Positions 31,064 to 39,686 of a DNA stretch of 51,211 nt are shown here, one piece after another (within the stretch, counting starts at the first letter, position 1; the number at the start of each line of letters is the position of its first letter). The translations under genes and the position numbers were made by a program. Source of the stretch: Bacteroidales bacterium (GTDB lineage: Bacteria > Bacteroidota > Bacteroidia > Bacteroidales > JAFGUD01); contig JAFGXO010000016.1 in assembly GCA_016936595.1 (NCBI GenBank), positions 1 to 51,211 of the forward strand, read 5' to 3'. The notes under the pieces were generated by a model that searched no databases, was not told the origin of the DNA, and saw only the letters and a program-made list of their open reading frames with translations.

Positions 31064-31444
31064 ATGTTAGAACCTATAAAATTAAACAAAAAAGAAGACA
31101 CTCCTTCGGTAGTGCTTGATAAACAAGAATCAATATTCTTTTTTGAAGGGATCTCTATTCCCGAAGATTCAACTAAATTTTATCAACCAATTATTGATTG
31201 GCTTAATTTATATTCGCAAGACCCTAATGATTATACCGAAGTAATTTTTAAAATAAAATATTATAATACATCTTCTTCTTTGCAAATTGCTACTTTAATA
31301 AAAATTTTTGATTTGCTTTTTAATGACGGACATAAAGTCCTTATAAAATGGCATCATCATCCACAAGATGAGGCTCTAAAAGAAGATGGCGAAGAGTTTG
31401 CCGAGTTTTTTAATGTTCCTTTTGAAATTATTTCAGATTTTTAA
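31064..31444 (+). CDS. SiaC-family (DUF1987) regulatory phosphoprotein, copy 1
   Basis: 126 aa; GISIPEDSTKFYQPIIDWLNLYSQDP, KIKYYNTSSSLQIATLIKIFD, IKWHHHPQDEALKEDGEEFAEFFNVPFEI. Confidence 0.88.
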   Translation: MLEPIKLNKKEDTPSVVLDKQESIFFFEGISIPEDSTKFYQPIIDWLNLYSQDPNDYTEVIFKIKYYNTSSSLQIATLIKIFDLLFNDGHKVLIKWHHHPQDEALKEDGEEFAEFFNVPFEIISDF

Positions 31445-31554: not shown

Positions 31555-31932
31555 ATGTTTGATCCTTTAAAAATACATAGTAAAAATTTTTTACCTGAGG
31601 TTGTTTTAGATAAAGATAAAGGCATTTTTATAATTAAAGGTAAATCAATTCCTGAAGACAGTAGTGAGTTTTACTCGCCAGTGTTTAAGTGGTTTGAAGT
31701 ATATTTTGAAAATCCGAATCCCGAAACTGTTTTCTTCTTACAATTAGATTATTATAATTCATCATCTGCACGTGCTATTGCTAATTTAATTAAATTATTT
31801 GATGATAAGTTTAATCTTGGAGTTAATGTTAAAGTTATTTGGAGCTATAACCCTGATGATGAAGCAATGAAAGAAAACGGCGAGGATTTTAGTTTGCTTT
31901 TTTCTCTTCCAATTGAAATTAATCCATATTAA
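31555..31932 (+). CDS. SiaC-family (DUF1987) regulatory phosphoprotein, copy 2
   Basis: 125 aa; GKSIPEDSSEFYSPVFKWFEVYFENPN, QLDYYNSSSARAIANLIKLFD, VIWSYNPDDEAMKENGEDFSLLFSLPIEI. Confidence 0.88.
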   Translation: MFDPLKIHSKNFLPEVVLDKDKGIFIIKGKSIPEDSSEFYSPVFKWFEVYFENPNPETVFFLQLDYYNSSSARAIANLIKLFDDKFNLGVNVKVIWSYNPDDEAMKENGEDFSLLFSLPIEINPY

Positions 31933-37605: not shown

Positions 37606-37674
37606 GTAAATAAATTTTGTTTGTTAATAAAATAGTTTAATTTTGAAGTGCAAAAATCAAATTTTTTCGGTACA

Positions 37675-38082
37675 ATGCAAAAAATAATTGTCATTCAAAC
37701 AGTAAAAAAGAACGAACTTTACAACATTACAAGTAAAGTTTCTGAATTTGTAGAAAAATGCTGCGTAAAGAGTGGCATAGTTAATGTATATGCACAAGGA
37801 GCAACGTCCGGAATTATGATTCAAGAAAATTGGGATAATTCTGTACAAAGTGATGTTCTTAATTTTTTGCAGAGTATTATTCCAAGTGGAGTGTGGGAGC
37901 ATGATAAACAAGATAACAACGGAGATGCTCACATAAAAGCCGGAATTGTTGGACCAAGTGAAACAATTCCAATCATTGATGGAAAACTGGGATTGTCAGA
38001 ATGGCAAAATATTTTTTTCTGTGAATTTGATGGTCCAAGAAAAAAAAGAACTATTATTTTAACTATTTTTGCTAATAAATAA
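37675..38082 (+). CDS. YjbQ/UPF0047 family protein
   Basis: VNVYAQGATSGIMIQENWD, DNNGDAHIKAGIVGPSETIPIIDGKLGLSEWQNIFFCEFDGPRKKRTIILTI; ATG at 37675 or ORF start 37648. Confidence 0.88.
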   Translation: MQKIIVIQTVKKNELYNITSKVSEFVEKCCVKSGIVNVYAQGATSGIMIQENWDNSVQSDVLNFLQSIIPSGVWEHDKQDNNGDAHIKAGIVGPSETIPIIDGKLGLSEWQNIFFCEFDGPRKKRTIILTIFANK

Positions 38083-38156: not shown

Positions 38157-39302
38157 ATGAATAATAAAGCATTTTCAGAGTCATATAAAAATTTTGTAGT
38201 CAACTTATTCAATGGAATTGAAAAGGGTGATTTAGAATACATCTATAAAGGTGAAGTTACCTCAACGGTTGTTACAAATATTTTAGACTTGGCTAAACTT
38301 AATTTAAATGATATTGATTTAAAACCACTTAGTTCAAGAATCTATTTTATTTTGGGCGAAGGTTTGCAAAATATATCACGGCATCAAGACAAAATTGATG
38401 GTACTACCCCCAGCGATAGTATAATTTTAATCAGCAAGCAAAAAGATACTTATAATATTACCACCGGTAATTTAATTAGAGTTGATAAAAAAGAAGAGCT
38501 TGAAGAAAAAATGCAGAAAATCAATTCAATGAATATTGATGAACTGCGTTATTTTGCCAGATATATAAGAAAAAATTACACTTTATCTGAAAAAGGCGGA
38601 GCTAATTTGGGGCTGGTTGAAATGGCAAAAAGATCCGGCAGTAAGCTTATTTATGGTTTTAAAGATTATTTACCCAATTACTCTTTTTTTTATTTTACAA
38701 TTGAATTAGACTTAAAAAACACTAAGCCAACGGATATTTTAATTATTCCTAAAAATGAATATAGAAATATTAATTTCCTTAAAAGATTTCATCAAACTTT
38801 AGCAGATCAAAATATTTATCTTGTTTTTAAAGGCGATTTTCATCAAAATAATATTTTGGCTTTGTTTGATATTTTAAGAAAACAAATGGCAGAAACGGTT
38901 GTTTCAATAAAGCTTAAAAATGTTCTTATTGAGGTTTTACAAAATATAGAAAAACATGGAGATAATTTACATGAAATTACAGATTGGAAACCAGGAATTG
39001 TTACAATACATCAATCTGAAGATGATTTTTTTCTTACAGCTTCAAACTATATAATTAACTCCAGAATTCCCCAATTAAAAAACAAAATTGATCAAATAAA
39101 TTCTTTGTCTCGTGATAAACTTAATGAGCTTTATCGCGAAAGTTTACTTGATTTTAATCAGGAAATTACAGCCAAAAAAACAGGATTAGGATATATCGAT
39201 ATTAGACGCAGAAGTGGCACACCTTTATCTTTCGATTTTATAAAAGTTGATGATAACTATTCGTTATTTTTTATTCAAATTATAATTAAAGACAAAAATT
39301 AA
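38157..39302 (+). CDS. Tandem two-domain SiaB-family (DUF6272-like, GHKL-type) protein kinase
   Basis: 381 aa; N-box-like EGLQNISRHQD (res 68-78) and EVLQNIEKHGD (259-269); G-box-like GGANLGLVEMAKRSG (147-161) and KKTGLGYIDIRRRSG (340-354); both pairs about 192 aa apart; followed directly by a SiaC gene. Confidence 0.8.
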   Translation: MNNKAFSESYKNFVVNLFNGIEKGDLEYIYKGEVTSTVVTNILDLAKLNLNDIDLKPLSSRIYFILGEGLQNISRHQDKIDGTTPSDSIILISKQKDTYNITTGNLIRVDKKEELEEKMQKINSMNIDELRYFARYIRKNYTLSEKGGANLGLVEMAKRSGSKLIYGFKDYLPNYSFFYFTIELDLKNTKPTDILIIPKNEYRNINFLKRFHQTLADQNIYLVFKGDFHQNNILALFDILRKQMAETVVSIKLKNVLIEVLQNIEKHGDNLHEITDWKPGIVTIHQSEDDFFLTASNYIINSRIPQLKNKIDQINSLSRDKLNELYRESLLDFNQEITAKKTGLGYIDIRRRSGTPLSFDFIKVDDNYSLFFIQIIIKDKN

Positions 39303-39311
39303 TATAAAAAT

Positions 39312-39686
39312 ATGAAAGCATTAGAAATACAAGCAACAGCCGACACTCCCAAAGTTATTTTGGACAAAGACAAAAATTATTTTGAAATCTCTGGATTGTC
39401 GCTTCCTGAAGATGCTATTGAATTTTACAAACCAATAATGGCTTGGTTAGAAGACTATGCAGATGATCCAAACTCAGATACTGTATTTAATTTAAAATTA
39501 GAGTATTTTAACACTGCTTCGTCTAAACAAATTATTCAACTTTTGTTATTTTTAGAAAAATTAAACTCTAAAACAAATGTGAAAATTCGTTGGCATTATA
39601 AAGATATTGATGAGGATATGCATGATTTGGGTGAAGAATATTCTGAAATTATTAAAGTTAATTTCGATTTAGTAGAATATACTTAA
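39312..39686 (+). CDS. SiaC-family (DUF1987) regulatory phosphoprotein, copy 3
   Basis: 124 aa; GLSLPEDAIEFYKPIMAWLEDYADDPN, KLEYFNTASSKQIIQLLLFLE, IRWHYKDIDEDMHDLGEEYSEI. Confidence 0.88.
   Translation: MKALEIQATADTPKVILDKDKNYFEISGLSLPEDAIEFYKPIMAWLEDYADDPNSDTVFNLKLEYFNTASSKQIIQLLLFLEKLNSKTNVKIRWHYKDIDEDMHDLGEEYSEIIKVNFDLVEYT

Follow-up and report, generated by a model that had tools for sequence, protein, structure and literature searches.

The window analysed here, the whole stretch of 51,211 nucleotides from a Bacteroidales bacterium, encodes a bacterial signalling kinase with two SiaB domains in one chain, followed directly by a gene for SiaC. The features to which the text refers are as follows.

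37648-38082, forward strand: YjbQ (UPF0047) gene, 74 bp upstream of the tandem gene.
38157-39302, forward strand: tandem SiaB-family kinase gene, ATG start, 381 aa, assigned from profiles and predicted fold.
38196-38705, forward strand: head 1 (D1), approximately residues 14-183, from profile boundaries and its own fold; N-box E68..Q71-N72..R75-H76, N105 and lid KGGANLGL (146-153).
38706-38780, forward strand: linker, approximately residues 184-208, the stretch between the two domain matches.
38781-39287, forward strand: head 2 (D2), approximately residues 209-377, from profile boundaries; N-box E259..Q262-N263..H267, N297 and lid KKTGLG (340-345), in which the first two lid glycines are missing.
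39312-39686, forward strand: SiaC, the likely substrate (PF09345, 4e-38), 9 bp downstream of the tandem gene, with a putative phosphosite Thr in EYFNTASSK.
31064-31444, forward strand: second SiaC paralogue, without a neighbouring SiaB (PF09345, 3e-33), phosphosite NTSSS.
31555-31932, forward strand: third SiaC paralogue, immediately following the second (PF09345, 2e-34), YYNSSSAR, in which Ser replaces the phosphosite Thr.

The same replacement of the phospho-Thr by Ser is seen in a few other SiaCs (L141 and L162). YjbQ was considered as a general conserved partner of the tandem gene and rejected, being found only in the window and at one related locus (L117) and absent upstream at five others (L118, L119, L120, L122 and L133).

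An earlier note on this DNA had read the protein as two complete SiaB domains, and profile searches with each half bear this out. Pfam DUF6272 (PF19788) matches the full 381-residue chain as two stretches (2e-58) and the single halves at 3e-28 (98.6 bits) and 4e-30 (104.5 bits), both above its curated cut-off of 26.6 bits, and the NCBIfam model SiaB_fam_kinase (NF038262) scores the halves at 102 and 120 bits, both above its cut-off of 85 bits. Aligned with each other, D1 and D2 share 25% identity (E = 6e-14), and the motifs quoted in the note recur at offsets of 191-193 residues (E68/E259, N72/N263, N105/N297 and G152/G345), in agreement with the approximately 192 residues proposed there. ATP-site motifs had been claimed for both copies, and the catalytic N-box Glu and Asn (E68/N72 and E259/N263), which are invariant or nearly so in relatives, are indeed found in both heads together with lid residues. 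The residue labels N68 and N259 were mistaken: these positions are the glutamates E68 and E259, the asparagines of the N-box being N72 and N263.

Structure prediction likewise gave a duplicated rather than a single fold, as expected of the whole-domain duplication that had been suggested. The AlphaFold model of the full-length chain, built with 60 tandem relatives (pLDDT 82.5, pTM 0.81), shows the same succession of helices and strands in each half, and its pTM allows the relative placement of D1 and D2 to be predicted with some confidence. In a Foldseek search of the PDB with the full chain, both SiaB chains of 6kko, a complex of P. aeruginosa SiaB with SiaC, rank first (TM approximately 0.83 over one half), with SpoIIAB among the weaker matches below them. 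Folded alone, D1 likewise has its closest PDB match in 6kko (TM by query 0.73, by target 0.81), and D2 is the only half that finds 6kko in a PDB sequence search. Both heads therefore count as SiaB domains, D1 by its fold match and D2 by its sequence match to the same structure.

The window protein is a member of the SiaB family by profile, fold, N-box and an adjacent SiaC with a phosphorylatable residue, and it is predicted to act as a kinase toward SiaC. With Pseudomonas aeruginosa SiaB (PA0171; PDB 6kko; NF038264/NF038262; DUF6272), which is single-domain as the earlier note held of known SiaBs, it shares the fold, the N-box Glu and Asn, the lid, an adjacent SiaC substrate and the presence of PP2C phosphatases in the genome. 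It differs in having two domains per chain with unequal lids, in its low identity (27% for D2 and 24% for D1), in scoring below the cut-off of the kinase_SiaB equivalog NF038264 (87 vs 225 bits) and in that no siaD-type GGDEF gene is adjacent or detected in the window genome. It is thus neither a SiaB of the P. aeruginosa type nor a component of a SiaD module. The anti-sigma kinases SpoIIAB and RsbW are likewise GHKL-type kinases of a STAS-like partner that work as dimers and are opposed by PP2C phosphatases, but they are not tandem chains, are not recognisably close in sequence and match only weakly in structure (TM approximately 0.5-0.65 by target); unlike them, SiaB is not known to have a sigma factor partner. 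Both halves also match the slr1658 superfamily regulators (NF047703) weakly, far below the cut-off (38 vs 100 bits).

The earlier note could not say how common the fusion is in Bacteroidota; the tandem is real and is not a local oddity, being an old architecture spread across many families of the class. Of nine DUF6272 proteins encoded by the window genome itself, the tandem form accounts for three (C193, C54 and C192). Full-length tandems occur in 67 of approximately 294 further genomes in a sample of the order (counted by a genome best E < 1e-70) and in at least 41 of approximately 388 genomes sampled from the class (counted from the full-length rows among the matches listed). A phylum-wide sample of 397 genomes yielded one tandem-bearing genome besides that of the window, which indicates that tandems are concentrated in particular groups within the class. 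Among named genomes, a scan returned at least 568 relatives, and the tandem is present at all of the best 80 loci among these, most of which are labelled as Bacteroidales metagenome-assembled genomes and some as Chlorobi. Tandem SiaB is an old and widespread Bacteroidota design.

In a tree of 132 domains, the D1s group together and the D2s group together, with four label changes in all against a minimum possible of two and a shuffled mean of 62; the D1 cluster is connected to a large group of SiaBs with one domain. This separate clustering points to an old rather than a recent origin, and the tandem appears to have arisen by one old duplication or fusion, with the exception that two divergent tandems on long branches (L070 and L024) are placed with uncertainty and possibly had a second, separate origin. 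Recent duplication inside the window genome was ruled out, since across distant families D1s group with D1s and D2s with D2s. A sequencing or assembly artefact was ruled out by full-length orthologues in two genomes of the same genus (77-78% identity), and a pseudogene by the substitution rates of these orthologues, in which dN is 0.15-0.19 and dS is saturated in both heads, a pattern that reflects purifying selection on each.

The two heads are systematically unequal. Across 115 distinct tandem proteins, the N-box Asn and the second Asn (N105/N297) are kept in every D1 and every D2, and the N-box Glu and the last lid Gly are each kept in 115 D1s and 113 D2s, so that by a five-residue test both heads are complete in 103 of the 115. 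In D2, the E, Q-N, N and G-L-G positions are invariant across 60 aligned proteins. The first and second lid glycines are Gly in all 115 D1s, where the lid usually has the canonical form KGGAGLGL, whereas in D2 they are almost always replaced, mostly by Lys or Glu. Mean identity between relatives is 47% for D1 and 38% for D2, with D1 the more alike in 95% of pairs, and D2 evolves faster than D1. The lid change need not mean that D2 has lost catalysis, as the related kinase SpoIIAB is active with non-glycine residues preceding its GMG motif.

P. aeruginosa SiaB phosphorylates SiaC at Thr68 (PMC7647112, PMC7278518), and the two form a 2:2 complex that dissociates upon phosphorylation (PMC7647112). 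The tandem could be a fused 2:2 unit of two equally active heads, each phosphorylating one SiaC without division of labour. This would fit the binding of SiaC by the SiaB homodimer (PMC7647112), the core catalytic residues kept in both heads and the correlation of distances of both heads with those of SiaC (0.60 vs 0.63, a difference whose interval includes 0 and which favours neither head). The lid and rate differences between D1 and D2 are consistent over 115 proteins, however, and D1s and D2s separate in the domain tree, which makes equal heads unlikely.

In a subclade of eight, made up of the window protein with L117-L120, L122, L125 and L133, the third lid glycine of D1 is Asn or Ser, a replacement seen in no other D1 of the 115; the window protein has Asn150, a position occupied by Gly in 107 of 115 relatives. 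D2 of this subclade keeps Gly at the same lid position, and the head roles could be reversed here, to judge from these residues. One head might also be a true pseudokinase binding only nucleotide or SiaC, in this subclade perhaps D1 rather than D2, as the D1 lid would suggest together with the closer identity of the window D2 to P. aeruginosa SiaB and its being the only half recovered by PDB sequence search. Against this, purifying selection has kept E68, Q71, N72, N105 and three of the lid glycines in D1, and Asn or Ser occupies the same lid position in 7 of 61 single-domain SiaBs, so the replacement is probably tolerated and is no proof of inactivity. A pseudokinase head is a serious contender that we nonetheless consider doubtful.

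SiaC is a near-constant companion of the tandem. Among 81 tandem ORFs in named genomes, SiaC lies directly downstream of 60 and is fused to 17, with one at a contig end and three without SiaC; the SiaB-SiaB-SiaC fusions are approximately 500-518 aa long and make up about a fifth of tandems. All 85 adjacent and all 21 fused SiaC partners have Thr or Ser at the phosphosite. Two adjacent SiaC genes occur at a minority of tandem loci (L084, L085, L087, L117 and L118). The earlier note had raised the idea that a tandem could phosphorylate two substrates, and heads tuned to different SiaC paralogues would suit the three SiaC genes in the window, the 14 SiaC against nine SiaB proteins in the genome, and the two SiaC genes that follow the tandem in the same-genus relatives L117 and L118. 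The idea found no direct support. Only one SiaC adjoins the tandem at most loci, the fusions carry one, and second SiaC genes also occur away from tandems, as beside the single-domain SiaB on contig C142, which has two. It is the least probable of the readings considered, and we regard it as improbable. The note's other suggestion, an intramolecular dimer with unequal heads, would fit better.

Tandem SiaB genes often lie just after a same-strand housekeeping gene, which is ftsZ at eight loci, dapF at seven and a sigma-70 type gene at one. In the window, a promoter scan gave matches no more numerous than in shuffled sequence. No PP2C phosphatase gene lies beside the tandem gene in the window, and the window genome has 48 SpoIIE-type PP2C matches (approximately 47 domains). 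SpoIIE-type PP2C is the commonest family among next-downstream genes of tandem loci (14 of 96). At thirteen or more loci, the gene convergent after SiaC encodes a sensor of TPR, propeller or membrane type, in many cases with a PP2C domain at the C-terminus, and these sensor/PP2C genes are likely the counterpart of SiaA.

Taken together, we lean slightly towards the tandem as a covalently joined, asymmetric counterpart of the SiaB homodimer, with specialised heads that phosphorylate the adjacent SiaC against PP2C phosphatases. The tandem chain would be made beside its SiaC, from the one transcript that the two genes probably share, and D1 and D2 would pack as a built-in pseudo-dimer with ATP occupying both pockets. 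In the family at large, D1, with its intact glycine lid, would be the main SiaC kinase, and D2, with its changed lid and faster evolution, would be a partner that binds nucleotide, shapes or gates D1 and perhaps holds SiaC; both this division of labour and the pseudo-dimer geometry are what we infer from the comparisons above. PP2C phosphatases of the SiaA/SpoIIE kind would remove the phosphate mark, and unphosphorylated SiaC would then act on its target, which is here unlikely to be a diguanylate cyclase.

The output of the P. aeruginosa module is SiaD (PMC8457831, PMC7278518). No GGDEF domain was detected in the window genome, which is approximately 85% complete and was searched with positive controls that were found, nor in seven of eight SiaB-bearing relatives searched, which hold 2 to 23 SiaC; the same-genus genome G460 encodes a single GGDEF protein. 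The c-di-GMP/SiaD output therefore cannot be assumed here. An expanded switch of 13-23 SiaC is seen in each of seven genomes, the window genome and G460 among them, and only G460 has GGDEF. After six SiaB-SiaB-SiaC fusions, and at one further locus (L131), the next same-strand gene encodes a protein of approximately 660 aa that combines pentapeptide repeats with an Ion_trans_2 channel domain and is a candidate SiaC output. A bolder reading, which strikes us as rather unlikely, has a covalently asymmetric switch kinase evolving in Bacteroidota, with one SiaB head sensing nucleotide and gating the other without catalysis of its own. It would work within a greatly expanded SiaABC network (up to approximately 20 SiaC per genome) with outputs other than c-di-GMP, possibly an ion channel after some fusions.

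In the open-access literature searched, no paper was found on the tandem SiaB form or mentioning DUF6272, nor any description or test of how unequal heads share work. Databases already contain the tandem architecture, which is frequent in this part of Bacteroidota yet apparently undescribed. Kinases of the SiaB type were described recently, and one of them is well studied. The survey also shows SiaABC-type switching to be widespread in Bacteroidota, often without the known c-di-GMP output, which leaves another output to be found. In a fused, unequal pair the heads can be mutated singly, which makes the role of each protomer in a partner-switch kinase dimer testable.
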